This document shows, in pieces, positions 1 to 45,237 of a stretch of DNA of 45,662 bases; the stretch's first letter is position 1, and every line of letters begins with the position of its first letter. The translations under genes were made by a program, and so were the position numbers. Source of the DNA: Nonomuraea lactucae (GTDB lineage Bacteria; Actinomycetota; Actinomycetes; Streptosporangiales; Streptosporangiaceae); contig NZ_QNFZ01000060.1 of NCBI RefSeq assembly GCF_003313395.1, forward strand, positions 1-45,662, written 5' to 3'. The notes beneath the pieces are model-generated. The model saw only the letters and a list, made by a program, of their open reading frames with translations, made no database searches and had not been told where the DNA came from.

Positions 1-45
1 CGTTCGGGACGAAGAGGTCGTGGGTTCAAATCCCGCCACCCCGAC
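1..45 (+). repeat. attL core: 45-bp direct repeat
   Basis: Identical over 45 bp to 45193-45237 and in the same orientation. It covers the anticodon arm to the discriminator base plus one C. Identity stops at once on the right of each copy. Here the tRNA CCA and a terminator hairpin follow, while the other copy continues with AGAG. This is the standard footprint of tyrosine-integrase insertion into a tRNA 3' end. Confidence 0.93.
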
Positions 46-47
46 CA
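1..47 (+). tRNA. tRNA-Pro(CGG), 3' half (5' half outside window)
   Basis: The window opens inside a tRNA. Positions 3-9 form a seven-base anticodon loop with CGG at 5-7, 10-14 the 3' anticodon stem, 15-19 the variable loop, 20-36 the T arm (GTGGG, loop TTCAAAT, CCCGC) and 37-43 the acceptor strand CACCCCG. A discriminator A and an encoded CCA tail follow (45-47). The acceptor strand implies a 5' end of CGGGGTG, typical of bacterial tRNA-Pro. The 5' half must lie upstream of base 1. After integration the element supplies the 3' half, so the tRNA stays functional. Confidence 0.85.
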
Positions 48-55
48 GCCAGGTA

Positions 56-93
56 AGAGGCCCTTTTCGGAGAGATCCGGGAAGGGCTCTTTT
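56..93. terminator. Rho-independent terminator after tRNA-Pro, facing int
   Basis: Stem 56-65 pairs with 82-90 (AGAG-CCCTT against AAGGGCTCT, one bulged G), followed by a T run at 90-93. It ends tRNA-Pro on the plus strand. An A/T-rich flank lets it also serve the integrase operon arriving on the minus strand. Confidence 0.7.
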
Positions 94-124
94 CATGATC
101 ATGCGTCACCGATGCGTCAAGATC
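94..124 (+). repeat. Putative integrase arm-type sites, left end
   Basis: A 31-bp segment matches 45050-45080 at the other end of the element at 27 of 31 positions in the same orientation. Each copy contains two tandem 8-mers, ATGCGTCA here at 101-108 and 112-119, spaced 11 bp apart, about one helical turn. Its position just inside the att core and beside the int stop codon is where arm sites for a bivalent tyrosine integrase are expected. Confidence 0.65.
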
Positions 125-125
125 G

Positions 126-1343
126 CTAACTCGTGCGTCGGCTCCACGAAGCCGTCACCTTCTCGTGCGCATCCGGCGCCAGATGCGCATAACGCTGCGT
201 AGTCTCGAACGACTCATGCCCCAGCAGCGCCTGGACGTCGTACAACGGCACCCCATCCTGCACCAGTCTGCTCGCCGCGGTGTGCCGCGTGATCCTCGGC
301 GGGAACCGGCGGATTCGATGCGCCGGCGCATCGCAGATCTCGCCGCACTCCCCCTCGACGAACACATCCCCGTCCGCTGCCTCGCTCGGCGATCGGTGGC
401 CGCACAGCCGGGCCGCCTCAACTGCCGGGTACCAGACCCTGTTGCGGAAGTCTCCGTCGTCCACGGACCCGCCGCCCGGCGCGGTGAAGACCAGGGCCTC
501 GCGCGGCCGGCCTTGCATGAGCAGGCTCATCCGCTCCAGCGTCTGGGGAGGGATGGGCACGGTGCGGTTCGACTTCATCGACTTCGGGTACTCCCGGATG
601 CCGTCGCGGGTCGCCACCTCGACCACGGAGAGCTTCCCGCGTATCCAGTCGACGCGGTGGCCGTGGAGCCCGTAGACCTCCCCAGGGCGTAGCCCGACGT
701 CCATGCCGAGCTCTACCAGGGTGCGCCACTTCGGCCCATGCAGGCGCTCCAGGGCGGCGTACAGCGCGGCGATCTCATCGGGCTCATAGAAGTCGATCGC
801 TGTGGCGGACCGCTTGGGCAGCTCGAGGTCGAGGAACGGGTTGACGAGGACGATCGGCGGGTGCTCCTTCATCGCCGCCTTGTATAGGCCAGTCATGATG
901 TGGACGATGTCGTGAATCGTCGCGGCGCTGATGAACGGGATCTCGTCCGCGTCGTCGAATGCCGAGGCGGGCCGGCCTCGGTGGCGGGCGCGCCGGGTCT
1001 CCTGCAGGTCGCCCACCCATGCCTGTGCGTCGACGCGCTGGATGGCCTGCATCGGCCAGTCGCCCCACCGATCTTTGCAGTGGGTGTTCCAGAGGCTGGC
1101 GTTCTTGGCCTTGGTCGGGGCCTCGATGACGCGGGCGGCGGTGACGCGCTCGTGCCAGGCTTTCACCTTGATCTCGCCGGCCTTGGGGTCGCGGATGTCG
1201 CCCTGGTCGAACTGGGCCTCCAACGCCTTGGCCCACTTCTCGACCTTGGACTTCAGCTTGTTGGTCTTCGTGGTGCGTTTGCCGTTGGGCATGCGGACGG
1301 TGGCCTGGTAGAGGCCGCTCGGTAGGCGGCGGATGTAGGCCAT
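126..1343 (-). CDS. int: Tyrosine (site-specific) integrase
   Basis: 405 aa. It catalyses recombination between phage and chromosomal att sites in tRNA-Pro. Residues 1-50 form an AP2-like arm-binding domain (PSGLYQATV), about 60-165 a SAM-like core-binding domain, and the rest the catalytic domain. Visible catalytic residues are R219 (GLRPGE), a likely Lys at 257, R353 in RITRH, H376 (LLGHES) and the nucleophile Y385 (QRYAHL). The usual first His of the HxxR box is Arg (R350). The start is the ATG at 1343, preceded by GGAGG and overlapping the upstream stop as TGATG. An upstream in-frame extension to 1520 is only a shadow of the next gene. The gene ends against the left arm sites. Confidence 0.93.
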   Translation of the reverse strand: MAYIRRLPSGLYQATVRMPNGKRTTKTNKLKSKVEKWAKALEAQFDQGDIRDPKAGEIKVKAWHERVTAARVIEAPTKAKNASLWNTHCKDRWGDWPMQAIQRVDAQAWVGDLQETRRARHRGRPASAFDDADEIPFISAATIHDIVHIMTGLYKAAMKEHPPIVLVNPFLDLELPKRSATAIDFYEPDEIAALYAALERLHGPKWRTLVELGMDVGLRPGEVYGLHGHRVDWIRGKLSVVEVATRDGIREYPKSMKSNRTVPIPPQTLERMSLLMQGRPREALVFTAPGGGSVDDGDFRNRVWYPAVEAARLCGHRSPSEAADGDVFVEGECGEICDAPAHRIRRFPPRITRHTAASRLVQDGVPLYDVQALLGHESFETTQRYAHLAPDAHEKVTASWSRRTS

Positions 1344-1624
1344 CAGTCCTCCGCTCCGGCCAGCACTTCGATGAGGAGGCGCTCGAGGACCATGGCACGG
1401 TCCATGGTGATCAGGTTTTCGGGGATGTGGATGGAGAGACCGGCCGCGGTCCAGGTGAAGGTGGCGGTGGGGGCAGCGTGGGCCAGGCGCCGTGCGGCGA
1501 CCTCTGTGTTGTCCGCCCACCGCCGCGCTTCCCTACGGCTCGGGAACGTGCGTGAGCGGCGTGCGCGCCCCACCCTGACGGTTGCCTGCCAGCGGCCGGA
1601 CGGGGTCTTGCGCAGGGATGACAT
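1343..1624 (-). CDS. Stand-alone integrase arm-binding-domain-like protein
   Basis: 93 aa. Residues 1-45 (SLRKTPSGRWQATVRVG, then SRTFPSRREARRWADNTE) resemble the AP2-like arm DNA-binding domain at the N-terminus of phage integrases, including that of the adjacent integrase (IRRLPSGLYQATVRMPNG). No core-binding or catalytic domain follows. The remaining 45 residues look like a helical tail. The start has a good GGAGG site and the stop overlaps the int start as TGATG, so the two are translationally coupled. It may occupy arm sites and tune integration versus excision. That role is inferred; a degraded int duplication is the alternative. Confidence 0.7.
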   Translation of the reverse strand: MSSLRKTPSGRWQATVRVGRARRSRTFPSRREARRWADNTEVAARRLAHAAPTATFTWTAAGLSIHIPENLITMDRAMVLERLLIEVLAGAED

Positions 1625-1641
1625 GAGTTTCCTCCAGGGTG

Positions 1642-2040: not shown

Positions 2041-2060
2041 TGGAGCATCACCGTGTCTTT

Positions 2061-2152
2061 CCGGGCGTTTTGCGTTTTCGAAGCTTCAGTGTGACGCCCG
2101 GGACAACGGAATGGTTGAAAATTCTTACGACAGGTAAGGGCACAGTCGCCCT
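2061..2152. promoter_or_regulatory. Putative int-operon control region with inverted repeats
   Basis: The gap between the repressor stop and the first int-operon gene holds an 8-bp inverted repeat (CCGGGCGT at 2061-2068, ACGCCCGG at 2094-2101) around AT-rich DNA. A short hairpin (AGGGC 2137-2141, GCCCT 2148-2152) lies just past the repressor stop. The first suits an operator or promoter of the int operon, the second a weak terminator. No confident -10/-35 pair was found. Confidence 0.3.
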
Positions 2153-2172
2153 ATGGCTAGATAGTCACTAGA

Positions 2173-2625: not shown

Positions 2626-2879
2626 CAGTGGTCGCCTCTCGTTAGCCCTCGCCTGTACTGCTGACCTTGCCGTCTGACACGTCTGTTGGAGGAATCCGAC
2701 AGAGGTTCGCCTTACCTATGTAACCCGAGACTTGCTAGACAACAAGATGCGGCAATCAAACCAGATCTCCGGGGCTACATGAGGATGCATCTGGCCACCT
2801 AGTGGACAGGATTCGTTCAAAGGTCTAGGGTGTTGGAAAAATCTTCCAACGTCCCCCCAAGTCCACGGAGGTCTCCCGC
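2626..2879. promoter_or_regulatory. Divergent switch region with candidate operators
   Basis: 254 bp without a gene, more AT-rich than its surroundings, between the leftward repressor and the rightward Cro-like gene. Two dyads share the half-site TGTTGGA: 2684-2701 (TGTTGGA, 4-bp spacer, TCCGACA) and 2831-2850 (GTTGGAA, 5-bp spacer, TTCCAAC). The second lies 30 bp before the rightward start and would overlap that promoter. A possible leftward promoter (TTGTCT, 18 bp, TAGGTA on the minus strand) lies near 2710-2735. The dyads are directly visible; the operator role is inferred. Confidence 0.45.
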
Positions 2880-3320
2880 GTGTCACGGCGTCCCGAGATG
2901 GCCCTACGCAGCCGCGAGCTACTGCGCGAGCTGATGAAGGGCCGCCACGACACGGTCACCCTGGCGAAGCAGGTCGGCCTCACCAAGCAGGCCATCCAGC
3001 ACCTAACGTCCGGCCGCCGCACATCCTGCAGCCGAGGCACCGCCGAACTCCTGGCGGAAGCCCTCGGCGTCGAGGTCGGCACCCTTTTTTCGCATCCAGC
3101 GTCCGAAAATTCCAACACCAAGGAGCAGAAAGTGCTGCTCACCATCCCCGAGGCCGCGAAGGCGATGCGCGTCTCGCGGTCGCACGCCTACCGGCTCGTC
3201 GCCGACGGCGACCTGCCCATCATCGACGTCGGCCGCAAGTCCTCGAAGAAGCCCATGTCGCGCGTGCCCGTCGAGGCCATCCAGGCGTGGATCGCCAAGC
3301 GCGCCGCCGCTCAGTCCTGA
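2880..3320 (+). CDS. Cro-like XRE / excisionase-like HTH two-domain protein
   Basis: 146 aa, GTG start. Residues 7-70 are an XRE/Cro-type helix-turn-helix (VTLAKQVGLTKQAIQHLTSG, then GTAELLAEALGV). Residues 85-140 are a winged helix of the excisionase/MerR-like type (LTIPEAAKAMRVSRSHAYRLV, then RVPVEAIQAWI). Xis and Cro functions normally sit in separate genes. Joined here as the first rightward gene of the switch, the protein could repress the repressor promoter and also bend att-arm DNA for excision. The domain calls are fairly secure; the dual role is inferred. Confidence 0.75.
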   Translation: MSRRPEMALRSRELLRELMKGRHDTVTLAKQVGLTKQAIQHLTSGRRTSCSRGTAELLAEALGVEVGTLFSHPASENSNTKEQKVLLTIPEAAKAMRVSRSHAYRLVADGDLPIIDVGRKSSKKPMSRVPVEAIQAWIAKRAAAQS

Positions 3321-3395
3321 AACGCGGCGAGGCCCAGCCTGCCGGGGCCGGACCTCGCAGACCGCAATCCCCAACGAGAAAGGGACGCAAGTCTC

Positions 3396-3998
3396 ATGAC
3401 CATTATCGCAGATCAGCAGCAGATCGATCCCCACGCCATCCGCTACGCCGTTCACATCTGGCGCGGCGCCGCAAAGATCAGCAGCACCGAGCCGACCACC
3501 GGCCAGGCTGAGGCCCGCGACATGTTCCGCGCGCTGACGGTGTCCTTCCCCGACTCCGTACTCGTGGTCCAGGGTACGGACGGCGAGTGGAGGCCAGCCT
3601 CCGACGAGATGCTCGATCGGCTGGCCACGCACCGCGCCGCCCTCGCGCTGGCGGACATCGTCATCAAGGGCCCGGACGGCATCAACTGGTCTCTACGGGC
3701 GCACTCCCCCGGCGAGGTGGACGGCCACACCTTCAGCCGTGAGCGAGTGGAGGAGGTCGCGAACTTCCTCGGGGTGGACGTCACGGAGCGGGTGAACGGC
3801 GAGCACCTCACTGTGCGCGCGGAGGGCACGTACCGCGGCGTCCCCGTTGAGGTGTACTGCGTTACCCGCATCGAGCAGGCCAAGTGCGTCGAGTGCGGCG
3901 CTCGCGAGGGACTCGCCCAGCAGCGGGACCACCGCACGGACACCCTGGTGTGGCTGTGCGCGGACTGCCACCACGAGGCAACCGCGGACGGTGCGTGA
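3396..3998 (+). CDS. Early protein with C-terminal zinc ribbon
   Basis: 200 aa, preceded by GAAAGGGA at a good distance. The N-terminal two thirds are unrecognised. The C-terminus has two knuckles (CVECG near 164, CADCHHE near 188) around HRTDTLVWL, an HNH-like or zinc-ribbon arrangement. It is the first gene of the long overlapping early operon, and its stop overlaps the next start as TGATG. Nucleic-acid binding is likely; nothing more specific can be said. Confidence 0.65.
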   Translation: MTIIADQQQIDPHAIRYAVHIWRGAAKISSTEPTTGQAEARDMFRALTVSFPDSVLVVQGTDGEWRPASDEMLDRLATHRAALALADIVIKGPDGINWSLRAHSPGEVDGHTFSRERVEEVANFLGVDVTERVNGEHLTVRAEGTYRGVPVEVYCVTRIEQAKCVECGAREGLAQQRDHRTDTLVWLCADCHHEATADGA

Positions 3999-4213
3999 TG
4001 GTGGCCGTTGACCTGCACGCCTGCCAGATCGTCTCCACACCGGAGTGGAACGACGGCGAACCCGTCCGCGTCCAGGCCGTGCACCCGGTGTACGGCGGCC
4101 GGGTGGCGGTCCGCTACCAGGACGCCCGCTGCCGGTGCGCGGCGCAGGCGGTCGTGGTGCCGGTGGGGATGGAGCTGACGCTCATCTCCGGCGGCTGTAT
4201 CGGCGGTGCCTGA
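3998..4213 (+). CDS. Small hypothetical early protein
   Basis: 71 aa, start ATG at 3998 in a TGATG overlap with the preceding gene; its own stop overlaps the next start the same way. It is predicted as a compact beta-rich protein (VHPVYGGRVAVRYQDARCRC, then VVPVGMELTLI), with a CRC pair that could bind metal. No family is recognised. Its reality rests on the coupled start and stop and on GC-rich third positions. Confidence 0.6.
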   Translation: MVAVDLHACQIVSTPEWNDGEPVRVQAVHPVYGGRVAVRYQDARCRCAAQAVVVPVGMELTLISGGCIGGA

Positions 4214-5118
4214 TGCCGCTCATCACCTACGTCCCCAAGACCTTCAGGCGCTCCACCCTCGACATCATCGAGCGCGCCAACGCCATCTGCGCCGACTACG
4301 CCAGCCAGGGCTTCGACCTGACGCTCCGGCAGCTGTACTACCAGTTCGTCTCCCGCGACTGGATCGCCAACAAGCAGACCGAATACGACCGGCTCGGCTC
4401 CATCGTCAACGATGCCCGCCTGGCCGGCCTGCTCGACTGGAACTACATCGTCGACCGCACACGGAACCTTCGCTCGCTGGCGCACTGGGACAGCCCGGAG
4501 TCGATTGTGGATGCCGTCGCTCACCAGTACCGCACCGAACGATGGGCCAACCAGCCCACTCGCGTCGAGGTGTGGATCGAGAAGGATGCTCTCGTCGGCG
4601 TGATCGCCGGGGTCTGCCAGCGGTACGACGTCGACTACTTCTCCTGCCGGGGCTACACCTCCCAGTCGGAGATGTGGGGGGCGGCGCAACGCCTGAGTCG
4701 GTACGAGCGGAGCGGCCAGAAGACCGTCATCGTCCACCTCGGCGACCATGACCCGTCCGGCGTGGACATGACGAGGGATATCCGCGACCGCCTGGCTCTG
4801 TTCGGGGCGGACACCGACGTCGTACGCATCGCGCTCAACATGGACCAGGTCGAGGAGTACCAGCCGCCGCCCAACCCGGCCAAGCTGACCGACTCCCGCG
4901 CGTCCGGCTACATCGCCTCGCACGGGCGCTCGTCCTGGGAGCTCGACGCGCTCGACCCGACCACGCTGGCCCGCCTCATCGAGGACGAGATCTGGGCCTG
5001 GCGCGACCCAGAGCAGTGGGAACGGGACACCGCCGTCATGGAGCGTGAGCGGTCGCTGCTAACGGCCGTGTCGGAGCGCTGGTCGGACGTCGCTGAGTAC
5101 GTGGACGGTGCCCGATGA
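4213..5118 (+). CDS. Toprim-domain protein, Spo11/TopoVI-A-like
   Basis: 301 aa. The N-terminal region (LTLRQLYYQFVSRDWI, then DRLGSIVNDARLAGLLDW) resembles the winged-helix part of Spo11/topoisomerase VI A-like phage proteins. A Toprim core follows: glutamate in VWIEKDAL near residue 122, and the DxD-type motif in HLGDHDPSG near 180. Toprim domains bind Mg2+ and act in strand cleavage or rejoining. No Tyr is placed confidently as a nucleophile, so nuclease, primase-like or topoisomerase-like activity remain open. The start lies in a TGATG overlap and the end in an ATGA overlap. Confidence 0.7.
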   Translation: MPLITYVPKTFRRSTLDIIERANAICADYASQGFDLTLRQLYYQFVSRDWIANKQTEYDRLGSIVNDARLAGLLDWNYIVDRTRNLRSLAHWDSPESIVDAVAHQYRTERWANQPTRVEVWIEKDALVGVIAGVCQRYDVDYFSCRGYTSQSEMWGAAQRLSRYERSGQKTVIVHLGDHDPSGVDMTRDIRDRLALFGADTDVVRIALNMDQVEEYQPPPNPAKLTDSRASGYIASHGRSSWELDALDPTTLARLIEDEIWAWRDPEQWERDTAVMERERSLLTAVSERWSDVAEYVDGAR

Positions 5119-5291
5119 CCGCATCCGGGCCCGCCCGAGAGCTCCCCCAGATCGCGGCCGCCTGTCCCACCTGCAACGCACAGCCCGGCGACCTGTGCAC
5201 CAGCCACAGCGGCACCCGCGTCCGGCGCCACGACACGCACGTGACGCGCACTGCCGCCTGGCTGGACACCGAAGAGGACGGCGAGAAGTGA
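5115..5291 (+). CDS. Short zinc-finger protein
   Basis: 58 aa. The ATG at 5115 overlaps the Toprim gene stop as ATGA. The pattern is CPTCNAQPGDLC, then SHSGTRVRRHDTH: CxxC, a Pro-Gly turn, Cys, then His residues. This small zinc-finger type (CPxCxAxPGxxC...H) is common in actinophages and mycelial actinomycetes. It is probably a nucleic-acid-binding accessory. The stop overlaps the next GTG as GTGA. Confidence 0.7.
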   Translation: MTASGPARELPQIAAACPTCNAQPGDLCTSHSGTRVRRHDTHVTRTAAWLDTEEDGEK

Positions 5292-5488
5292 CCGGTCTGC
5301 TCACGCGTCTCCGCGCCCTGCACACCCGCCGTACCGCTGCCCTCGACGCCATCGCCAAGGCCGACGCCCAGGCGTGGCTCGCACCGTTCATCGACACCCC
5401 CGCCCCCACCCGGGCGGGGGCCCACCCCTACCGGCCGAAGGGCACCCGCAAGGGCGAGCTCACGGCCACCGAAACGAGCCGCGCATGA
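5288..5488 (+). CDS. Small hypothetical early protein
   Basis: 66 aa. The GTG start sits in a GTGA overlap with the zinc-finger gene, and the stop in an ATGA overlap with the exonuclease gene. The protein is basic and helical at the N-terminus (LLTRLRALHTRRTAALDAI), followed by a Pro-rich segment. No family is recognised. It is kept because both ends are coupled and the overlapping alternatives are weaker. Confidence 0.55.
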   Translation: MTGLLTRLRALHTRRTAALDAIAKADAQAWLAPFIDTPAPTRAGAHPYRPKGTRKGELTATETSRA

Positions 5489-6477
5489 CCACCACCACAC
5501 GAGCGGACTGCCCCACCTGCAAGACCCAGCAGCAGGTCAACAAGGACGGCACCATCCGCAAGCACACCCCCGCTGGCAACGCCATCCCCTGCCCGGGGAG
5601 CGGCGTGCCGGTCGGCACCGCCCGCATCCCCCGCCGCTCGACGGCCGGGTTCTACAAGTGCCACGTCACCGGCCAACTCCTCCGCTCCGTGACCACCATC
5701 CTCAACCAGGGGTCGCCCAAGGAAGCGCTCATCCACTGGGCCGGGCGACTCGTCGCCGAAACCGCAATGGAGCACCTACCCCAGCTCGTCCGCGCATCCC
5801 GCCACCCCGACACCGCCAAGGAGATGACGGACTGGCTCAAGCGCGCCCACACCCGCAAGAAAGAGGAACGCGGCGACCTCGGCACCACCGTCCACGCGCT
5901 GATCGAAGCCAAGGTGCTCGACACCCCAGTCCCCGACGCGATCGCGAACGACCCAGAACTGCGCCCGTACGTGGCCAACTTCGAACAGTTCGTCGCCGAC
6001 TGGCAGATCACCTTCACCGCCTCCGAGATGGTCGTCGCCGACTACGAGCACAAGTTCGCCGGCACCCTCGACTACCTCCTCCGCTCCCCGCTCCTCGCCG
6101 CCGAACTCGGCTGCCCGGCCGACATGGAGATCCCGGGCGATACGAAGACCGGTGGTGAGCTCGACAGCCGCACCTACGACGGCAACGTTCACGGCGTGTA
6201 CCCCGAGGCCGGCGTCCAGATGTCCGCCTACCGCAAGGCCAAGTACGGCTGGCTACGTGACGGCACGCGGGTGGAGATGCCGCCACGCCACGAGGTCGGC
6301 GTCGTCCTGCACCTGCGACCGGAGGGCTACCGCCTCTACCCGGTGCGCTGCGGCGACGACGTGTTCGAGGCCTTCACCTTCATCCGCCGCGTGGCGGAGT
6401 TCCAGACCGGCCCGGCCAAGAACATCGTCGGCCAGGCCCTCACTCTCAAGCGTTCCCAGGCCCGGGAGGTGGCCTGA
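5485..6477 (+). CDS. PD-(D/E)XK exonuclease, Cas4/RecB-like
   Basis: 330 aa. The N-terminus has a zinc-ribbon-like stretch (CPTCKTQQQ, then PCPGSG). The nuclease core shows the alpha-helical His motif (GTTVHALIEA, near 138), an acidic strand (EHKFAGTLDYL, near 190), the DTKTG motif carrying the [D/E]xK lysine near 220, and a Gln/Tyr helix (GVQMSAYRKA, near 242). This is the set found in Cas4-like and lambda-exonuclease-like phage enzymes that resect dsDNA for recombination. The Gp3-like gene follows after 2 bp. The start is the ATG at 5485; an upstream in-frame extension has no ribosome site. Confidence 0.85.
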   Translation: MTTTTRADCPTCKTQQQVNKDGTIRKHTPAGNAIPCPGSGVPVGTARIPRRSTAGFYKCHVTGQLLRSVTTILNQGSPKEALIHWAGRLVAETAMEHLPQLVRASRHPDTAKEMTDWLKRAHTRKKEERGDLGTTVHALIEAKVLDTPVPDAIANDPELRPYVANFEQFVADWQITFTASEMVVADYEHKFAGTLDYLLRSPLLAAELGCPADMEIPGDTKTGGELDSRTYDGNVHGVYPEAGVQMSAYRKAKYGWLRDGTRVEMPPRHEVGVVLHLRPEGYRLYPVRCGDDVFEAFTFIRRVAEFQTGPAKNIVGQALTLKRSQAREVA

Positions 6478-6479
6478 CC

Positions 6480-7586
6480 ATGCCCATCATCAACCTGCAG
6501 AAGCGCGCCCGCGAGCTCGGCCGCATCCGCATCGGCGAGGTCCAGCCCACCGCCCGCGGCGGCACTCGCCCGGCCAAGCTGGACCGGTTCCGGCTCACCA
6601 GCGCCTCCCGTGCGCTCCTGGACAAGGTGGCCAAGCTGTACGGCGGCGAGGTCCGCGAGTGGACCCCTGCCAACGGCGGACCCTCCGCATGGGAGGTCAT
6701 CACCGACGCCACCCGCCTGCCCATCCTCGTCCCGCCGCAGCCTGTCTCCCAGTGGTACGAGCTGTGGTCCGGCGGCGGCTGCAAGCGCCGCTGCGACGGC
6801 CAGACTGAGATCCTCTCGGACTCCTCGTGCCTGTGCGCCCAGGCAGACGAGATGCTGTGCAAGCCCACCACCCGGCTAAACGTCGTGCTGCGGGACGTCG
6901 AGGGCATTGGGGTCTTCAGGCTGGAGACCCACGGCTACTACGCCGCCGTCGAGCTTCCCGACGTGGCCGCCTTCCTCGCGCAGGCGGGCGGCTACGTCGC
7001 CGCGAACCTGTCGCTTGAGGAGCGGGTGGTCAAGCGGGACGGGGAGACCCGCCGGTTCATGGTCCCGACCATCGAGGTGGAGGGGCTGACCCCTGGCGAG
7101 CTGGTCGCCGGTGGTGGCCGGACTGCCATCGGGGCGGGTACAGCTCCCGCCGTCGCTGGCGCGAGCCGTACTGCAATCGAGGCGCCGCGCACGGACTACG
7201 AGGTGCTCATCGCCGCCGCCGGATCCCGTGACGACGTCGTCAAGATCTGGGAGCAGGCCAAGCAGGACCCCAACGCGGACGGCAAGCAGGTCGAGGCCGC
7301 GGCCAAGGCGCGCGTCGCCGAACTCCAGCAGCCCGCCCCGGCCGTCGAGCCCGCCCAGGAGGCGCCCGGCTCCGACGCCGAGCTGCTGTGGCAGCAGATC
7401 GTCTCCGCCTGGCCGCGCGGCATGACGGAACTGGCCAAGATATTCGAGGGAGCCATGGGCATCCACCACAAGGCCGCGGCCGAGAACGAACTGGCCGCGT
7501 TCCTCAAGCTGGTCAAGGCCGGCAAGTACAACGGCCTCGCCCCTGCCACCACTCCGGCGGGCGCCGAAGAGGCGGTGCCGTTCTGA
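6480..7586 (+). CDS. Gp3-like protein (often named recombination directionality factor)
   Basis: 368 aa. The N-terminal 200 residues (INLQKRARELGRIRIGEVQP, TRPAKLDRFRLTS, QWYELWSGGGCKRRCDG, GYYAAVELPDV) match, from memory, the actinophage family related to phiC31 Gp3. A Cys cluster (KRRCDG, SSCLCAQ, LCKP) suggests metal binding. The tail, from about 230, is Ala/Pro/Glu-rich and helical. phiC31 Gp3 switches a serine integrase, but this element uses a tyrosine integrase. Position behind an exonuclease suggests a broader DNA role such as ssDNA annealing. Family 0.7; function open. Confidence 0.65.
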   Translation: MPIINLQKRARELGRIRIGEVQPTARGGTRPAKLDRFRLTSASRALLDKVAKLYGGEVREWTPANGGPSAWEVITDATRLPILVPPQPVSQWYELWSGGGCKRRCDGQTEILSDSSCLCAQADEMLCKPTTRLNVVLRDVEGIGVFRLETHGYYAAVELPDVAAFLAQAGGYVAANLSLEERVVKRDGETRRFMVPTIEVEGLTPGELVAGGGRTAIGAGTAPAVAGASRTAIEAPRTDYEVLIAAAGSRDDVVKIWEQAKQDPNADGKQVEAAAKARVAELQQPAPAVEPAQEAPGSDAELLWQQIVSAWPRGMTELAKIFEGAMGIHHKAAAENELAAFLKLVKAGKYNGLAPATTPAGAEEAVPF

Positions 7587-39160: not shown

Positions 39161-39373
39161 TCAGGCGCAGTCTGGCCAGCGCTCCCCGATCGAGCAGCGG
39201 CGGGCGACAGTCCTGCTCGTCTCATGTCGCGCTTCACGACCACTGCCGTCCTCGACGACCGCTACCCAGCGGCGTCCGCGGTCGACCACCCTCCCGGCCG
39301 GGCTCGTGGTGTAGTCGGCGCATGCCCCCACGAGCGGCAACGTGAGCGCGACAACAGCACAGATGCGCCTCAC
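39161..39373 (-). CDS. Small lipoprotein of the transfer operon
   Basis: 70 aa. The GTG at 39373 overlaps the preceding stop as GTGA. A short Arg-rich start, hydrophobic core (ICAVVALTLPLV) and lipobox VGAC (Cys near 18) predict lipid anchoring outside the cell. The C-terminus has a Cys pair (RRCSIGERWPDC). It is the last gene of the minus-strand operon. Small lipoproteins at conjugation operon ends can act in entry exclusion; here that is only a guess. Confidence 0.55.
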   Translation of the reverse strand: MRRICAVVALTLPLVGACADYTTSPAGRVVDRGRRWVAVVEDGSGREARHETSRTVARRCSIGERWPDCA

Positions 39374-39564
39374 TTCGGGCCGCGAACGCCTGCGCCACCG
39401 CAGCGAGGGCACAGGCGCCATCGGCCCGACAGGCTGCTGTAGATGCGGCCTCCCTTGCACCCGCAGTTGCTCCACCGGTGCCGGGACCGGTCGTAGACGA
39501 CCACGATGGCGGCGCGCACCACCAAGCAGAAGAAGATGAGTGCACCAGCGGTTTCATCGCTCAC
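39370..39564 (-). CDS. Small membrane protein with CxxCxG zinc-ribbon motif
   Basis: 64 aa, GTG start with AGGGA upstream. One transmembrane helix (AGALIFFCLVVRAAIVVVY), then CGCKGG and CPRCGGAGVRG, a DnaJ-like half zinc ribbon on the cytoplasmic side. Tiny proteins of this build recur in actinomycete transfer operons, from memory. It lies just beyond the GGTAG[AC]GG cluster that follows traB. Confidence 0.6.
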   Translation of the reverse strand: MSDETAGALIFFCLVVRAAIVVVYDRSRHRWSNCGCKGGRIYSSLSGRWRLCPRCGGAGVRGPK

Positions 39565-39585
39565 GGTTCCCTGCGCTTTCTGTGA

Positions 39586-39733
39586 GGTAGAGGGGACCCC
39601 CTCTACCGGTGGGCGGATCGAACGAGCGGCGGCCGGCCTCTACCGTGAGCACCTCATGTAGAGGGGGCCCTCTACCCGGGTCATGGGGGCGGTAGCGGCC
39701 TGCCACCAGGCAGGTAGCGGGGGTAGAGGGGGG
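39586..39733. repeat. GGTAG[AC]GG repeat cluster downstream of traB, candidate clt
   Basis: Eight copies in 148 bp. GGTAGAGG occurs forward at 39586 and 39722, reversed (CCTCTACC) at 39600-39607, 39637-39644 and 39669-39676, and forward with one mismatch at 39657. GGTAGCGG occurs at 39691 and 39713. Two pairs form near-perfect palindromes (39586-39607, 39658-39675). The cluster fills the untranslated gap after the traB stop. In Streptomyces plasmids such as pSVH1, TraB binds clustered 8-bp repeats in clt next to traB. Confidence 0.7.
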
Positions 39734-39755
39734 CCGCGCCGTCCCTGGTGGTTGC

Positions 39756-41843
39756 TCATCTGGGCGCTGCCAGCGGTGTGTCGAACAGCTCGACCGGCAC
39801 CGCGTCCTCGATGTCGCGTCGGTTGTATCCGGCCCGGTTCTGGCCGTCGATCTTCACCTGCTTCGTCTCGCGGCGGACGCCGGCGCGCTCGAGCTCCTCG
39901 GCGAGGATGCTCGGGTCCCAGTCGCCGTAGGTGTCCTCATCGACGTTCACCAGCCCGGTGAGGATGTCGCTGGTGAACATGCGCGGGCTGTTGTGCATCA
40001 CGTACAGCACGTCCGAGATGACCGCGGGGATCGCTCGGCCGGCTGCCTCCGCGGCGGACACCACATCGCCCACGGCGTCCCCGGACAGCAGGCCCGCATC
40101 TTCGCGCAGCTTTCGGCCGCGTTGGCAGATGTCGGCGAACGCCGCGTTGTCGAGGTAATCGCACTTCGGGATGACGTAGGAGCCGGGCCCGGTGATGAGC
40201 ACCCCGACGCCCTTGTGCTCCTCCTGCAGGATGCTGGCGTCGGCGCCCTGGGCGGCCTTGCCCTTGCCGAGCACCATGTCCGAGCTGGTCTTGTCGACGA
40301 CCTGCGTCGAATACCGGATGGTGATGATCTCCCGCAGCTTGGTCGGCACCGAGTCGGCGTCCGGCCGCTGCGAGGCGAAGTTGCAGATGAAGCCCGCGGC
40401 AGGGCCGCGCCGGGCGATTCTGCACAGCTTGTTGATGACCTCGTCCTTGAGGTCCTTGTCCATCGCGGTGAAGTACTCCTGCAGCTCGTCGATCGTGACG
40501 AAGATCAACGGCATCCGGTATTTGCGCATGATGTGCGGCGTCAGCTTCGACTCCGGGCACACCGACGTGGGCAGATCCCGGAAGATCCGGAAGCGCCGCT
40601 CCATCTCCACGATCAGCTCGTCCAGCATGGCCACCAGGGCGGCGATGGCGTCGTCCTCGGCGCCGAGGATCAGCCGGTGTGCCACCGAACGCATGGGCAT
40701 CCAGTCGGCGCCGCCCTTGCCGTCGGCGACGTAGTGGCGCACCCACGCGTCGAGCACGCCGGCCGCGGTCAGCAGCCGCTGCGAGAAGGTCTTGCCGCGC
40801 CTGGGGAGGCCGCCGAAGAACATGGACTGCCACAGGATCGACAGGACGATCCGGTTGCCGCGGGCGTCGACGCCGAACGGGATCGGATCCCATACCGACC
40901 AGGTGTCGGCCTTGGCCATGGGCGAGGTGGTGGGCGGCCCCATGTAGGGGTCGTCGTCTGCCACCCACAGGGCGATCCGGCCGCCGTGCCCGCCGGCGTG
41001 GGCGCGCACCCGGGACATGATGAGCTGGATCTCGTCGACGCCGAGCTCGGCCGCGAGGAGCTCCCTGCGCGATAGGACGTCGTTGGCGGTCCGGCCGCAG
41101 CCGCGTGGCAGGTCGATGACCGCGGACCAGCCCTTGCCGTCGCGGATGACGCCCTGGACGAGGGTGAGGGCCTGCCCGGCCTTGATCAGCCCGGCCGCGC
41201 GGAACGCCTCGTTGAGGTGCTCCGGGGCGAGGTCGAGGCGAACGGGCAGGGCGGGGGCGTCCATGACGGCGGCCTCGCTGACCGTGGTCCCGGTGACGGC
41301 GGCGGCGGACGCGGCCAGCACGCCGAGCCCGTACGGCAGCAACGGGTAATGCGTGACCAGCGCGTTGAGCAGCCCGAGTCCTGGCAGGCCGAGCCCGGCC
41401 GTCCACTTGGTGCGGCGCCAGATCTCCGCCCGCCTGGTGGCCCGCTCGTTCGCGGCGTCCTTCTTACGCCCCTCGGTGAGCGCCTGGTCGACGACCAGCT
41501 TGTGATCGTAGGCGGTGACGAACCGCCAGCCCGCGCGCACCCCCACCGCGGACCCGATCAGCGTGCGCAGCGCGAGCCGGCCGCCGTACTTGGGCGAACG
41601 GACAGCGTGCCAGGCAGCGATGTAGGCCATCTTGCGGGTGTGAAGCTTGATCTGCGCCTGCCAGCCCTGCCGCGTGGTGGCCCAGGTGGGCAGGATCGGG
41701 CCGAGCTCGCGCTCGTAGTCGGGCACGACGTGCCCTTCGAGCTCGATCTCGCGGGATGCCGGCGTCGAGGGGACGGCGGGCGGCGGCGACTCCTGGACTG
41801 CGAGTTCGCCGCCGCCCTCCGCGCTGGCCGTGTTCAGCTCCAC
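39756..41843 (-). CDS. traB: TraB-type FtsK/SpoIIIE DNA translocase
   Basis: 695 aa from the GTG at 41843, which has AGGAAG six bases upstream; the frame extends further 5' only as a shadow. Hydrophobic segments lie near 90-105, 145-160 and 167-188. The motor domain has Walker A GLPRRGKT (345-352) and Walker B LIFVTIDE (446-453). The C-terminal 80 residues form a winged helix (SPRMFTSDILTGLVNVDED to QNRAGYNRRDIEDAV) like the TraB DNA-recognition domain. Such hexamers move double-stranded DNA between mycelial cells. A phage-packaging role is unlikely, as terL is present. Confidence 0.85.
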   Translation of the reverse strand: MELNTASAEGGGELAVQESPPPAVPSTPASREIELEGHVVPDYERELGPILPTWATTRQGWQAQIKLHTRKMAYIAAWHAVRSPKYGGRLALRTLIGSAVGVRAGWRFVTAYDHKLVVDQALTEGRKKDAANERATRRAEIWRRTKWTAGLGLPGLGLLNALVTHYPLLPYGLGVLAASAAAVTGTTVSEAAVMDAPALPVRLDLAPEHLNEAFRAAGLIKAGQALTLVQGVIRDGKGWSAVIDLPRGCGRTANDVLSRRELLAAELGVDEIQLIMSRVRAHAGGHGGRIALWVADDDPYMGPPTTSPMAKADTWSVWDPIPFGVDARGNRIVLSILWQSMFFGGLPRRGKTFSQRLLTAAGVLDAWVRHYVADGKGGADWMPMRSVAHRLILGAEDDAIAALVAMLDELIVEMERRFRIFRDLPTSVCPESKLTPHIMRKYRMPLIFVTIDELQEYFTAMDKDLKDEVINKLCRIARRGPAAGFICNFASQRPDADSVPTKLREIITIRYSTQVVDKTSSDMVLGKGKAAQGADASILQEEHKGVGVLITGPGSYVIPKCDYLDNAAFADICQRGRKLREDAGLLSGDAVGDVVSAAEAAGRAIPAVISDVLYVMHNSPRMFTSDILTGLVNVDEDTYGDWDPSILAEELERAGVRRETKQVKIDGQNRAGYNRRDIEDAVPVELFDTPLAAPR

Positions 41844-42004
41844 CGCCGCTTCCTGGCCTGGTCGGTGGACTGCTTGCGCTGCCGCACCTCGTCCGGGTCG
41901 AACATGCTGCGGGTGCGGCCCTTCTCGCGGCGGCGCATCAGGTCGGCCCACTGCTCGTCGCTGATCGTCTTGGGCGACGTCGGCCGGTTGTCCTGGTCGC
42001 TCAT
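41834..42004 (-). CDS. Small basic protein upstream of traB
   Basis: 56 aa. The ATG at 42004 overlaps the previous stop (ATGA) and the 3' end overlaps traB by 10 bp. Highly charged (QWADLMRRREKGRTRSMFDP), helical and basic. Coupled to traB translation, so perhaps a TraB accessory. Unrecognised. Confidence 0.6.
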   Translation of the reverse strand: MSDQDNRPTSPKTISDEQWADLMRRREKGRTRSMFDPDEVRQRKQSTDQARKRRWS

Positions 42005-43002
42005 GCCGCCGCCTCACCCGTACGGAACACCTGCATGCGGGCTTCCCGTACGCGCTTCTCCACCCATGATCGGGAGCGCCGCGTACGGGTCATGAGCGCC
42101 TCGTAGTCCGGCCCCCACCGATCGCCGCGCTCGGCCGCGGCGAGGATTTCCTCGCGGAGCGTACGGACGAACGCCTCCTTCTCGACGGGCAGGTCGACCG
42201 GCGCGGGAGCCGGTGCCGGCGGGTGCTCCGTACGGGCGGTACGGGCGCCGGGCTGGAAGGTGAACGCCCTCCGGAGGACGCGTACGGGCTCGATCACGGG
42301 CCCCGTACGGAAGGCGAACGTACGGGCGATGCGCACCACGCGAGGCCCCTCCGTACGGGGAGCCGTACGGAACACGAGGGAGCGCCGTAGGGGAGCCGTA
42401 CGGACGGGTGCGGGGGCGGCGGCACGGGCCCGTACGGCGGCTGTCTCGTACGCCTTGTGGACGGCCTCGGTGATCTGGTGCTTCAGCGTGGTGATCGCCT
42501 CGGCCGCGCAGAACACGATCGCGGGCGGGACGCTGTGCAGCAGGATGGCCGCCGGGTCCTTCGCCTGCCACGAGCTCCACGTGTTCATCAGGTACGTGAG
42601 AAGCAGCGCGATCCACTTCGTACGGCGGATCCACGGCCCCGCCTTGATCTGGTGGCGGGCGATCACCTGCTCACCGAGCAGCGTCCCCAGGAGGATGAGC
42701 GAGACCGTGGGGTCCAGCAGCCAGGCGATGCACCACGGGATCGACCACGGTTCGGCGTCGCGCGCAGCGAACTGCTGCACATTGGCCGCGGTGAACGCCA
42801 GGCCGATGACGACGCCTGCCCACATGAGCCGGTCGACGCGGGCCCGCATCCGTTCGATGCGGTAGGCGATGACGTCGGGATTGGTGTCGTAGGCGCGGAC
42901 GTCGGCGGCGGCCTGGGCGGCGGCGGCGAGCTTCTCGGCGGCCGTCGGCTTCTTCTTTGTTCGTGCTGGCGCGGCGGTGGGCTCGCGCTTATCGTTCTTC
43001 AC
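42001..43002 (-). CDS. SpdB-like multi-pass membrane protein
   Basis: 333 aa. A Lys/Ala-rich start, then about four transmembrane segments (LMWAGVVIGLAFTAANVQQF; WCIAWLLDPTVSLILLGTLL; KWIALLLTYLMNTW; LHSVPPAIVFCAAEAIT), resembling DUF2637/SpdB proteins that sit beside traB and aid plasmid spread. Residues 190-265 are Arg/Thr/Pro-rich and disordered. The last 60 residues look like a helix-turn-helix (PDYEALMTRTRRSRSWVEKR). The DNA of the 3' two thirds is packed with CGTACG. Confidence 0.7.
   Translation of the reverse strand: MKNDKREPTAAPARTKKKPTAAEKLAAAAQAAADVRAYDTNPDVIAYRIERMRARVDRLMWAGVVIGLAFTAANVQQFAARDAEPWSIPWCIAWLLDPTVSLILLGTLLGEQVIARHQIKAGPWIRRTKWIALLLTYLMNTWSSWQAKDPAAILLHSVPPAIVFCAAEAITTLKHQITEAVHKAYETAAVRARAAAPAPVRTAPLRRSLVFRTAPRTEGPRVVRIARTFAFRTGPVIEPVRVLRRAFTFQPGARTARTEHPPAPAPAPVDLPVEKEAFVRTLREEILAAAERGDRWGPDYEALMTRTRRSRSWVEKRVREARMQVFRTGEAAA
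42019..42624. repeat. Fourteen CGTACG hexamers within the SpdB-like gene
   Basis: Copies start at 42019, 42047, 42082, 42160, 42229, 42281, 42304, 42319, 42352, 42364, 42397, 42431, 42447 and 42619. Twelve continue as CGTACGG on the plus strand, and seven are the full palindrome CCGTACGG. They fall in all three codon phases (CGT ACG at 42304, GTA CGC at 42281, G TAC GA at 42447), so a repeated peptide does not explain them. At this base composition about 0.2 copies are expected in 600 bp. Confidence 0.85.
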
Positions 43003-43078
43003 GGGTCGGACTCCAAGGTTGAGTTGGTGTCTGAGCTGGAAGAACCCCGTCGGCGTTGGCGCGCCGGCGGGGCCTTCT

Positions 43079-43330
43079 TCATTCAGTCGGGAATCGGTCG
43101 ATCCACCGGCGCGGGAACGCCAGCGTGTGTCCGCGGTCGTGCTCCTCCACCAGGTCCTCCCACAGCTCGCGCGCCCGCCTGTAGGGGCCGCGGCCGGCCT
43201 CCTCCGTCCCGCTCTTGCGCAGGACCATGTACTGGCCGCCCTGGCACGCCCACTCGTAGGCGCCGCAGCACGACGTCTCAGTAACGCGGAGCCGCCCGCG
43301 GCGGGGATTGTGCGGTTCCCACGCGACCAC
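43079..43330 (-). CDS. Small Cys-containing transfer-operon protein
   Basis: 83 aa, GTG start with AAGGAG upstream. The pattern TETSCCGAYEWACQGGQYMV, then GRGPYRRARELWEDLVEEH is one I associate with small proteins of actinomycete integrative elements. A Cys trio may bind metal. Lies 76 bp upstream of the SpdB-like gene. Function unknown. Confidence 0.6.
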   Translation of the reverse strand: MVAWEPHNPRRGRLRVTETSCCGAYEWACQGGQYMVLRKSGTEEAGRGPYRRARELWEDLVEEHDRGHTLAFPRRWIDRFPTE

Positions 43331-43345
43331 GCGCGTTCTCCTTGC

Positions 43346-43591
43346 TCAGTGGCGCCTTACGCGCCGGGTGTGGAGGATGCGGGCCTGGTTGGACAGGGCG
43401 GCGCTAAGCGCGTCGACCGAGGTCCGGGCGATCGCCTGGTAGAGGCCGACGGCAGCGAGGTCGGCCGAGGGTTGCTGACGCTGGATGGCCCACCACCAGC
43501 GCTGCCCGTGCCGGTCAGTGCGGCAGGAGAGCCGCCAGGAGGGATACATCTGCGCGAGCAGCTGCAGCACTCTCAGGTCGCGATCCTCCAT
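43346..43591 (-). CDS. Small hypothetical transfer-operon protein
   Basis: 81 aa from the ATG at 43591, which overlaps the preceding stop as TGATG. Compact alpha/beta pattern with Trp cluster (MYPSWRLSCRTDRHGQRWWW), then a helix (GLYQAIARTSVDALSAALSN) and an Arg/His tail. Opens with EDRDLRVLQLL, like the winged-helix protein at 37717. Unrecognised. Confidence 0.55.
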   Translation of the reverse strand: MEDRDLRVLQLLAQMYPSWRLSCRTDRHGQRWWWAIQRQQPSADLAAVGLYQAIARTSVDALSAALSNQARILHTRRVRRH

Positions 43592-43950
43592 CAGCGCTCG
43601 GCCCACAGTTCGGCGTAGATCATCCGGCCGCCACGTTTGGTGGGCCGCTCGCCGTAGGCGTCAGCGAGCTTCGACACCGCCTGGTAGGCGGTGGCTGCGC
43701 TGGTCGGGTCCGGCTGGTCGTTGGGGAAGTACAGCTCAAAGCGAATCTTGCTGGGCTCCTCCACGGTGATGAGGTTCATGTCGCTGCCGGGGCTCGACTT
43801 GGCCAGCCCAGCGGAGAAGAGGTGCTCGACGAGCGTGTAGGCGTCGGAGGCGCGCCCGGGGAGGTGCTGGTTCGCGACGGTGTAGGCGAGCTGCGCGGCA
43901 GCGTCGGCGCTGCCCGCCAGCGCGGGATAATCCTGGGTCCAGGTCGTCAC
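43591..43950 (-). CDS. First gene of the transfer operon, hypothetical
   Basis: 119 aa from a GTG at 43950 with GGTGG upstream; the frame opens earlier, but that part overlaps the operator region. Mixed alpha/beta (AAQLAYTVANQHLPGRASDA, MNLITVEEPSKIRFELYFPN). It is divergent from the GntR regulator, with the operators in between, so it probably leads the operon that ends at 39161. Confidence 0.55.
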   Translation of the reverse strand: MTTWTQDYPALAGSADAAAQLAYTVANQHLPGRASDAYTLVEHLFSAGLAKSSPGSDMNLITVEEPSKIRFELYFPNDQPDPTSAATAYQAVSKLADAYGERPTKRGGRMIYAELWAER

Positions 43951-43980
43951 AGTCACCACCAGACTGAGGGGAAATCTGTC

Positions 43981-44040
43981 TATGCAGCTCGATGGCCGCA
44001 CGCACAGCTTGCAAGCTGCATATGCAGCCCGTCAAGCTGT
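43981..44040. promoter_or_regulatory. Divergent tra/gntR operator, copy 1
   Basis: A composite of two overlapping dyads: AGCTTGCAAGCT and CTGCATATGCAG (44004-44027, 24 bp). Half-sites flank it: TATGCAGCT at 43981-43989 and AAGCTGT at 44034-44040. It lies between the leftward tra operon and the regulator start at 44045, overlapping where a leaderless regulator promoter would be. A matching inverted copy is at 44937-44960. Expected ligand: the adjacent GntR protein. Confidence 0.75.
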
Positions 44041-44044
44041 CTTC

Positions 44045-44809
44045 GTGGATCAACCCGCTTACGTCCGTATCGCGAACGACCTGAGGGCCCGCATCGTCAG
44101 CGGCCAGCTGGCCGCAGGCACGCGACTGCCCTCGCGCCAGGAGCTGGCCGTCGAGTACGACGCCGCCCAGGGCGTTATCAGCGAGGCAACCAAGCTGCTC
44201 ACCCGCGAAGGGTTGCTCGTGTCCAGGCCGGGCGCGGGCATGTTCGTACGGCAACGCCCTCAACGCCGCAGCCTGGTCCGCTCATGGTTCCGCGAGCGGC
44301 AGGCCGGGAGCCCGTTCCGACAGCAGATGGAGGAGCAGGGGCGCCGCGGCTCCTGGGAGTACGCATCGGAGACGCTGCAGGCGCCGGCGGAGGTGCGCGA
44401 GCGGCTGGGCCTGGGCGAGCCGGACGGCGACCGCCACGACGTCATGCGCACCACCTACACGTTCTCCTCGGACGACGAGGGACCGTGGATGCTGTCGACC
44501 AGCTGGGAGCCGCTCGAGCTGACGAAGGGCACGCCCATCGCGTGGCCAGAGGCCGGCGAGCACGCGGGACTCGGCGTGACGCACCGCATGGCCGCTATCG
44601 GCATCACCGTAGACGCGTGGGACGAGGAGGTGTGGGCGCGGGTGGCGTCGCCGGAGGAGGCGAAGCATCTGGGCATCGGCGCGGGTTCGATCGTGATGGT
44701 GGTCGAGCGCAGTTACTTCGCCGGTGAGTTGGCGGTGGAGACCTGCGACATCGTGGTGCCCGCGGAGACAACGAAGTTGGTCTACAACGGGCCGGTCGGC
44801 GACAGCTGA
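44045..44809 (+). CDS. GntR/HutC-family regulator (KorSA-like), UTRA domain
   Basis: 254 aa from a GTG at 44045. An earlier in-frame ATG at 43982 would place the operator inside the gene. Residues 5-70 are a GntR winged helix (IANDLRARIVSGQLAAGTRL, PSRQELAVEYDAAQGVISEA). Residues 95-245 are a UTRA effector-binding domain (MRTTYTFSSDDEGPWMLSTS, ERSYFAGELAVETCDIVVPA). KorSA-type regulators of actinomycete integrative elements repress transfer genes and themselves. No ribosome site is visible, so the mRNA may be leaderless. Confidence 0.85.
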   Translation: MDQPAYVRIANDLRARIVSGQLAAGTRLPSRQELAVEYDAAQGVISEATKLLTREGLLVSRPGAGMFVRQRPQRRSLVRSWFRERQAGSPFRQQMEEQGRRGSWEYASETLQAPAEVRERLGLGEPDGDRHDVMRTTYTFSSDDEGPWMLSTSWEPLELTKGTPIAWPEAGEHAGLGVTHRMAAIGITVDAWDEEVWARVASPEEAKHLGIGAGSIVMVVERSYFAGELAVETCDIVVPAETTKLVYNGPVGDS

Positions 44810-44821
44810 AGGCCTCCGGGA

Positions 44822-44864
44822 GCCTGGCCGCCGGGCGAGGGCTAATCGCAGCCGGCGGCCAGGC
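44822..44864 (+). terminator. Terminator after gntR
   Basis: A 13-bp perfect stem (GCCTGGCCGCCGG at 44822-44834, CCGGCGGCCAGGC at 44852-44864), 17-nt loop, no T run. It ends the regulator transcript. Confidence 0.75.
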
Positions 44865-44936
44865 CGCTCGGGGGAGCGACGTCCCAGCATCACTCCTTGA
44901 GCACACTAGTTCACTTATTGCGCACAGTCCAGCCTC

Positions 44937-44960
44937 CTGCATATGCAGCTTGCGAGCTGT
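44937..44960. promoter_or_regulatory. GntR operator, copy 2 (inverted)
   Basis: Reverse complement of 44004-44027 with one mismatch in 24 bp (G at 44954). The adjacent 44895-44930 stretch is AT-rich (ACTAGTTCACTTATTG) and may hold a promoter; TTGAGC at 44898 is a weak -35. It lies past the regulator and its terminator, with no protein gene between it and attR. Confidence 0.7.
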
Positions 44961-45050
44961 ACGGAGATCGCGAAGGGGCGCTTCGTGGCGACAGTGTCGA
45001 TCCCCTGCCCGATCACGCCCCGTCATCCGGTTGGATGGCGGGGCGTTGTC
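44961..45050 (+). ncRNA. Candidate small RNA between operator 2 and attR
   Basis: Three stems in succession: CGAAG/CTTCG (44971-44985), CGACA/TGTCG (44989-44999) and a 14-bp terminator-like stem (45015-45028 with 45033-45046, GGTT loop), then TTGTC. With a regulated promoter overlapping the operator just upstream, this would give a transcript of about 85 nt. No good ribosome site or convincing reading frame is present. Inferred from structure and context only. Confidence 0.4.
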
Positions 45051-45080
45051 ATGATCGTGCGCCACCCATGCGTCATGATC
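45050..45080 (+). repeat. Putative integrase arm-type sites, right end
   Basis: Matches 94-124 at 27 of 31 positions in direct orientation. It contains GTGCGCCA (45057-45064) and ATGCGTCA (45068-45075), again 11 bp apart. It lies 113 bp inside the attR core. One pair of sites at each end is what a circularised attP with P and P' arms would give. Confidence 0.65.
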
Positions 45081-45192
45081 TTGGAAATCCCAGACACTCC
45101 TAGGTGATTCCGAGAGACGCATTCCGTTGTCTTTAAGCTGGTCAGAGCCACGGCGTACGCCATGACCAGCACTCGCCCGATACGGCCTGATA

Positions 45193-45237
45193 CGTTCGGG
45201 ACGAAGAGGTCGTGGGTTCAAATCCCGCCACCCCGAC
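45193..45237 (+). repeat. attR core: 45-bp direct repeat
   Basis: Identical to 1-45. No tRNA 5' half precedes it (no CGGGGTG acceptor strand or D arm upstream) and no CCA follows, so it is the displaced 3' end of the original host gene rather than a functional tRNA. It marks the right end of the element. Confidence 0.93.

Follow-up and report, generated by a model that had tools for sequence, protein, structure and literature searches.

A Nonomuraea lactucae siphovirus prophage with a putative TraB-type DNA transfer cassette in its right arm

The 45,662-nucleotide stretch analysed here (the window) is the whole of contig NZ_QNFZ01000060.1 of Nonomuraea lactucae (GCF_003313395.1; C1019 below), one of 1068 contigs in an assembly of 8.67 Mb, and the same contig stands in IMG/VR as viral record L015. 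It holds an integrated element, taken as positions 1 to 45237, which is inserted in the 3′ end of a tRNA-Pro(CGG) gene and joins virion genes with genes of a transfer type. By its gene content the element is a temperate siphovirus prophage, and its right arm probably holds a TraB-type cassette for the transfer of double-stranded DNA.

Gene content and borders of the element

The cassette is situated at 39370-44809, between the lysis genes and attR. The original prediction had drawn this module from 39161 to 44809; the right end is kept and the left end moves to 39370. The minus strand carries, in order from 43950 to 39370, three small genes, a gene for a membrane protein of 333 amino acids (aa), a 56-aa gene, the FtsK/TraB-like gene, a repeat array resembling a clt (cis-acting locus of transfer) and a 64-aa gene. 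All of the open reading frames (ORFs) in the cassette are open. Its features are as follows.

39370-39564, minus strand: 64-aa membrane/zinc-ribbon-like protein beyond the repeat array; 7 of 13 stretches compared (window included) have a similar small ORF at this position
39586-39731: clt-like repeat array with six GTAGAGG sites, read from the sequence
39756-41843, minus strand: FtsK/TraB-like DNA translocase, 695 aa, with N-terminal helices, Walker A motif GGLPRRGKT and a C-terminal winged-helix-like part
41834-42004, minus strand: 56-aa operon protein, no Pfam or NCBIfam match
42001-43002, minus strand: 333-aa membrane protein, Spd-like by position, with 59-63% homologs in relatives G355 and G242
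43079-43330, 43346-43591 and 43591-43950, minus strand: three small operon genes, the last two conserved (67% and 76%) in relative G064
43973-44031: candidate operators CTGTCTATGCAG (43976) and CTGCATATGCAG (44016) in the divergent gap
44045-44809, plus strand: GntR/UTRA regulator, divergent from the operon (PF00392, 4.9e-15; PF07702, 6.7e-8)

The translocase matches FtsK_SpoIIIE (PF01580) at 3.2e-6 (27.2 bits, cut-off 24) and the FtsK-like phrog_1358 at 5.5e-29, and among solved structures its sequence matches FtsK (7e-4) and a DNA translocase coupling protein (0.03). An AlphaFold model, built on 33 sequences with a mean pLDDT (predicted local distance difference test) of 72.9 and a pTM (predicted template modelling score) of 0.62, shows helices at the N-terminus, then a motor part and, at the C-terminus, a helix-strand part. 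The 333-aa protein has two hydrophobic stretches, and its Spd-like label rests on hydropathy, position and homologs; CCGTACGG repeats lie within its coding sequence at 42161-42403. The copy of the candidate operator at 43976 differs from CTGCATATGCAG by two mismatches, and a further copy with a mismatch lies in the tail genes (34536). An exact CTGCATATGCAG is also found at 44937-44948, 3′ of the GntR gene and before attR, in a stretch without a called gene. G064 has no CTGCATATGCAG; a different repeated word occupies its divergent gap (read by eye).

Both ends of the element are marked by an exact 45-bp repeat.

1-45, plus strand: att core at the left end, the 3′ part of tRNA-Pro(CGG), with the 5′ part on contig C738
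45193-45237, plus strand: right-end att core, beyond which the flank resembles a tRNA-Pro terminator

ARAGORN detects no complete tRNA within the window; the intact tRNA-Pro(CGG) is on C738, the final 77 bases of which are the first 77 of the window. The chromosome adjoining the tRNA matches that of Nonomuraea gerenzanensis (84.9% over 75% of a 9-kb query). The flank after the right core resembles the same-tRNA flank of L278, L280 and N. gerenzanensis, and nine other flanks differ, in a comparison of one strand at 12 of 30 fetched loci (own locus included). An integrase-like fragment just beyond attR (45304-45594, with an 85% match on contig C998) points to earlier use of the tRNA-Pro site. 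Several Nonomuraea genomes carry additional copies of the tRNA core at distances of 2-18 kb from the tRNA, which marks the site as a hot spot. In 32 sequence sets from other records no tRNA-Pro core was found at up to nine mismatches, so their elements would use other sites.

The break between the contigs coincides exactly with the start of the att core and brings the 77-base overlap to C738; at its other end the window contig overlaps C920 and C659, likewise by 77 bases. The overlap at the core would fit a k=77 assembly graph with a second path into it, which hints at attP in the sequenced DNA; no matching break was seen at attR, and no attP contig was found.

Our own gene caller gives 64 ORFs in the window, and the phage genes among them include the following.

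126-1343, minus strand: tyrosine integrase, 405 aa (PF00589, 8.7e-17; phrog_1, 1e-48)
6480-7586, plus strand: Gp3-like recombination directionality factor (PF18897, 3.9e-45)
10970-12376, plus strand: DnaB-like replicative helicase (PF00772, 1.2e-19; phrog_19, 2.7e-25)
15817-17085, plus strand: terminase large subunit, terL (phrog_2, 1.5e-38)
18241-19791, plus strand: portal protein (phrog_533, 3.3e-105)
19813-21852, plus strand: minor capsid protein with a C-terminal ADP-ribosyltransferase domain (PF06152, 2.3e-56; PF03496, 3.2e-21)
22908-23924, plus strand: major capsid protein (phrog_212, 5.8e-61)
27941-29974, plus strand: tape measure protein, 677 aa (phrog_58, 3.3e-45)
36078-36857, plus strand: endolysin (phrog_1493, 6.3e-39)

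Further PHROG matches cover minor head (4.3e-81), scaffold (2.4e-18), major tail (4.6e-34) and minor tail (1.5e-31) proteins as well as RuvC-like and topoisomerase-like genes, and an ORF at 2898-3320 matches PHROGs of repressors and excisionase regulators (best 2.5e-8). The virion genes for terminase, portal, capsid, tail tube and tape measure are thus accompanied by an integrase and a repressor-type regulator, the gene set of a temperate siphovirus. The Gp3-like directionality factor stands here beside a tyrosine integrase; PF18897 is a family known from serine-integrase phages. At and after the end of the DnaB-like gene, a repeat cluster (CCGGACAG, ACCTGTCC, GTCCCGGA; 12361-12840) is a candidate phage replication origin. 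The tape measure protein is shorter than the 954-aa protein of G001, to which it is 61% identical over 614 columns, followed by a weaker 29% terminal match.

These matches bear out the original prediction that phage and transfer-type genes share a single element, which has one intact integrase and a single att pair, as seen in the virion PHROGs, PF01580 and the exact repeat. Its siphovirus gene list stands for terL, portal, capsid, tape measure and endolysin, but the holin is less firm, as no holin family was matched and the 85-aa gene at 37391-37648 has no NCBIfam or PHROG match. The FtsK and GntR/UTRA families of its transfer operon likewise stand, but 'SpdB-like' is less firm (no Pfam match) and 'complete' is a reading.

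Actinomycete integrative and conjugative elements (AICEs), as described in PMC3218068 and PMC9513070, share with the window an integrase, an att site at a tRNA 3′ end, an FtsK/SpoIIIE transfer gene and a GntR (KorSA-type) regulator, and here too the integrase adjoins one att site. The window differs by its virion gene set and by its length, 45 kb against the 11.9-36.2 kb given for traB regions (PMC9513070). A Pfam scan of 23 window proteins, among them every non-virion ORF of at least 240 aa in our gene list, found no match to Prim-pol (PF09250) or RepAM (PF12307); RepSA was not searched for. Without a recognised AICE-type replication module, the element is not an AICE by the published definition, and the earlier description of its transfer half as an AICE is not upheld in full.

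The same slot in related phages and the FtsK family

Relatives were defined as portal matches at E ≤ 1e-200, which gave 11 among 342 genomes of the family. The right arm could be read in ten of these (portal 64-77%), the contig of G055 being too short, and five of the ten (G070, G090, G064, G242 and G243) carry FtsK/TraB-like, membrane and GntR genes. The pumps of G090 and G064 are 29-31% identical to the window FtsK and match PF01580, and those of G242 and G243 are 77-78% identical to that of G064. G064 also keeps two of the window's small operon genes and the GntR gene at 67, 76 and 83%, and the G243 gene in the Spd-like position matches DUF2637 at 2.1e-6. The 670-aa pump of G070 matches phrog_24831 ('unknown function') and has no Pfam FtsK match; we call it TraB-like on the strength of its Walker A motif, its helices, its C-terminal part and the genes around it. 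As judged from these sequences, the slot of the five relatives is filled by two other pump types, and the joining of phage and pump is not unique to the window. The cassette is present, absent or exchanged among relatives, in line with the cassette swapping raised in the original prediction.

More distant phages differ in this region. In the stretches read of ten prophages with portals of 44-55%, blastp gave no match to the window FtsK or the G070 pump, although for two of them (G055:C179 and C769 of the N. lactucae genome itself) the right arm lies outside those stretches. The latter belongs to a second prophage of the same portal type (46%; C769:18730-20310), with a contig that ends at the lysis genes. 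In G012 (portal 43%) an FtsK gene (33%), accompanied by a GntR gene, lies near the element's end. G001 is second among the capsid relatives (87%); FtsK found no match in its record of 41,058 bp, which is possibly cut. Portals related at about 42% also occur in siphophages of Streptomyces and Gordonia (such as ToastyFinz) and in Micromonospora phage pMLP1 (L014). Like the window, pMLP1 has collinear head genes and a GntR/UTRA gene facing a membrane-protein operon (2723-7485), which is perhaps a related slot with other content. It was considered as a second hybrid and set aside, as no FtsK gene was recognised from its gene list.

Two cases place a cassette within a phage rather than beside one. 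The G090 element has a 13-bp repeat at both ends (read by eye) and uses a different integrase (325 aa) and a different site from the window; its flanks are adjacent in 19 of 19 other genomes examined, of 53 others with a match. These empty sites place the cassette inside the element, together with the phage genes. L039 is part of a 58.3-kb contig of a related soil virus (terL 49%, portal 50%) on which an integrase (54% to that of the window) is followed by a tRNA 3′ end, a membrane-protein gene, FtsK (51%) and then lysis and tail genes as read; no GntR gene was recognised there. Within the N. lactucae genome, this tRNA 3′ end is best matched by tRNA-Ile(GAT), at 88% over 34 bases. Since phage genes lie on both sides of the one tRNA fragment, this would be attP in a free or permuted genome with the cassette inside, and the gene order is that expected of the window closed into a circle. 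A tandem duplication is a possible alternative for L039.

That the window itself consists of two tandem elements is highly improbable. The integrase fragment just outside attR would suit such a history, but no core lies between phage and cassette (18-base and 23-base parts of the core are absent elsewhere in the window at up to three mismatches), and the empty sites of G090 and the arrangement of L039 largely refute it. A hidden third core and relatives with phage and transfer parts as separate elements had been named as tests of the hybrid, which passes both. The hybrid is real and is one case of a recurrent arrangement. The joining that the original prediction took as new, if confirmed, is not unique to this element, given the cassettes in five of ten relatives and in L039 and the FtsK loci in other phages.

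The FtsK family itself is shared more widely. On viral contigs, 29 loci encode relatives of the window FtsK, the window being one. For 18 of the 29, tblastn finds terL, portal or capsid genes in the fetched flanks, with a panel that includes proteins from some of those same viral records and with terminase only in L017 and L019; adding the window, L039 and L041 (phrog_2) brings loci with virion markers to 21. A separate profile search gives the phrog_2 terminase in 8 of 22 viral records, and among the panel records PHROGs confirm two for terL, portal and capsid and one more for terL and capsid. One-per-species genomes hold 56 FtsK loci, of which 19 have markers of the Prim-pol, primase or recombinase kind, 2 have virion markers and 35 have neither. 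Together, these counts make the pump gene common to AICE-like elements and phages. The window FtsK is matched in 104 of 72,556 plasmid records (best 57%) and in 2 of 50,697 phage records, both of one phage (26%). In the FtsK tree, the window gene sits on a long branch (0.81) beside a seven-row clade (5 AICE, 2 unlabelled; support 87), a join flagged by the program as possibly false. The 'phage' label needs 11 changes on this tree (10 forced by starred branches) with half of the rows unlabelled, which suggests repeated exchange.

Two viral contigs with members of this family, L017 (14987 bp) and L019 (14667 bp), encode an integrase, a membrane protein, an FtsK/TraB-like protein (58%) and a terminase large subunit (31-33% against the one from G023). 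In neither was a gene for portal, capsid or tail recognised, L017 also has a prim-pol match, and from their genes the two look like a mix of AICE and phage satellite.

The marker counts also bear on whether the cassette is the decaying remnant of a tandem AICE at the same tRNA that has lost its integrase, replication genes and att core. The 19 of 56 genome loci with Prim-pol-type markers and the extra tRNA cores in the genus would suit this origin, but every ORF of the module is open and the slot is filled in half of the relatives, one of them with another integrase and att site. We regard a remnant as improbable.

The clt-like repeat array

Directly after the stop codon of the window FtsK, six GTAGAGG sites lie within 143 bp. 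No 7-mer was as frequent in any of 500 shuffles, and 4 of 1124 comparison windows held one. In pWTY27, the proven clt is made up of 16 bp of traA and the next 159 bp, and contains four 7-bp repeats that are bound by TraA (PMC3583192). As described there, it resembles the window array in its short direct repeats and in its place, some 160-175 bp at and after the 3′ end of the transfer gene, whereas the repeat word is TGACACC in pWTY27 and GTAGAGGG in the window. The window array is thus placed like known clt loci, and its putative clt-like sites are new here.

To follow the array through the family, 300 bp around and after the FtsK stop were scanned in 81 of 85 loci, the other four having too little sequence. 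In a motif-free scan, variants of one word were the top repeat in about 60 of the 81 (read from the list). Of the 81 FtsK loci, 72 hold two or more copies of GTAG[AC]GGG, against 4 of 4828 control windows; for one copy or more the figures are 79 of 81 and 203 of 4828. The controls were drawn from the same loci, the window is among the 81, and several loci are near-copies and so not all independent. Two or more copies are found under every label, in 17 of 20 phage, 18 of 19 AICE and 37 of 42 unlabelled loci. The array is a candidate clt for AICE-type elements as well; PMC9513070 notes that for the archetype, pSAM2, no clt had been described.

Pumps of other types are followed by other words. 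Counting any word against comparison windows, G070 has GGGTGCCA six times (0/1159) and G012 has CGCTAG eight times (0/1413), and G242 has GGGTCGAC six times after the pump gene, where 4 of 1432 comparison windows hold any word so often. GGTAGA, a word chosen after the arrays had been inspected and present in only two copies in G243, is not reached at its array count in any comparison window of G064 (0/1096), G090 (0/1836) or G243 (0/1770). When the arrays are aligned, the sites of G242 read GGTCGACC at most positions where G064 and G090 have GGTCTACC-like words. Such a joint change of sites among close relatives is expected if a DNA reader and its sites co-evolve.

Weighing the cassette and its possible function

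Several results weigh against a transfer cassette. The NCBIfam plasmid_TraB model matches the window FtsK at E 0.006 (15.1 bits against a cut-off of 800), and the 333-aa membrane protein has no Pfam match. When any word is allowed, the arrays with GGTAGA five times in G064 (42/827, k=6) and in G090 (154/1383) are weak, as is GGGTCTA four times in G243 (67/1333, k=7). Four of the ten relatives read have no cassette (G358, G137, G178 and G328, the last decayed), and G355 keeps the Spd-like gene alone. Pump candidates found in those four relatives by Walker A motif or otherwise were rejected as SRP54, an ABC transporter, gyrase B and an integrase. Finally, at least six other phages have their FtsK gene a short way upstream of terL (1.7-3 kb) and not beside a GntR gene.

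This last position suits a role in phage DNA handling, in which FtsK would work in replication, dimer resolution or packaging and the repeats would be polarity or loading sites; a replication role has also been suggested for the FtsK-like gene of phage Geonosis (PMC11536984). For the window we find such a role improbable, because its FtsK gene shares an operon with a membrane-protein gene, headed by a divergent GntR gene in the manner of transfer operons, and because sister phages lack it.

If the transfer reading is right, the element would work like other TraB/clt elements. TraB hexamers are described as recognising 8-bp repeats and moving double-stranded DNA, with Spd proteins serving intramycelial spread (PMC12857230, PMC4170104), and the GntR protein KorSA controls replication and transfer of pSAM2 in a kil-kor system (PMC3218068). 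By analogy, the GntR protein of the window would repress the operon as KorSA/KorA-type repressors do, Int would excise a circle, and FtsK hexamers would dock on the GTAG[AC]GGG sites through their C-terminal domain. The circle could then be pumped in double-stranded form, either to the next compartment of the hypha or into a mating hypha, with the virion genes as a second exit. Alternatively, the pump may serve the lysogen only, spreading or segregating the excised circle within one mycelium or into spores and never between strains. The part that Spd plays in intramycelial spread and the use of the same TraB machinery for both steps would agree with this; the argument on the other side is indirect, in that known TraB systems also transfer between cells (PMC4170104, PMC12857230). 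We consider a pump confined to the lysogen unlikely, though it is the strongest of the alternatives.

Phi1207.3 of Streptococcus pyogenes is a prophage reported to be capable of conjugal transfer (PMC4260502), in a Firmicute host. TIGER/Islander surveys report phage and conjugative genes in one called island in <0.1% of islands (PMC12424338); that source describes them as tandems, whereas in the window both parts lie within a single att pair. A search of the open-licence literature, with subscription papers and preprints outside its scope, showed no report of phages with TraB/clt cassettes.

We put forward tentatively, and at somewhat less than even weight, that a temperate actinobacterial virus lineage has two routes out of one genome, as virions and as TraB-pumped double-stranded circles, and that pump and co-evolving array form an exchangeable cartridge in a fixed slot, such that pump specificity could be swapped without changing the virus. 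The similar pumps and different repeats of G064, G242 and G243 make a natural set for learning how sites are read by TraB-type proteins. A working cassette would mean that one group of soil viruses crosses the boundary that separates prophages from conjugative elements, and that a lysogen could hand its virus on to a strain closed to infection by the virions.

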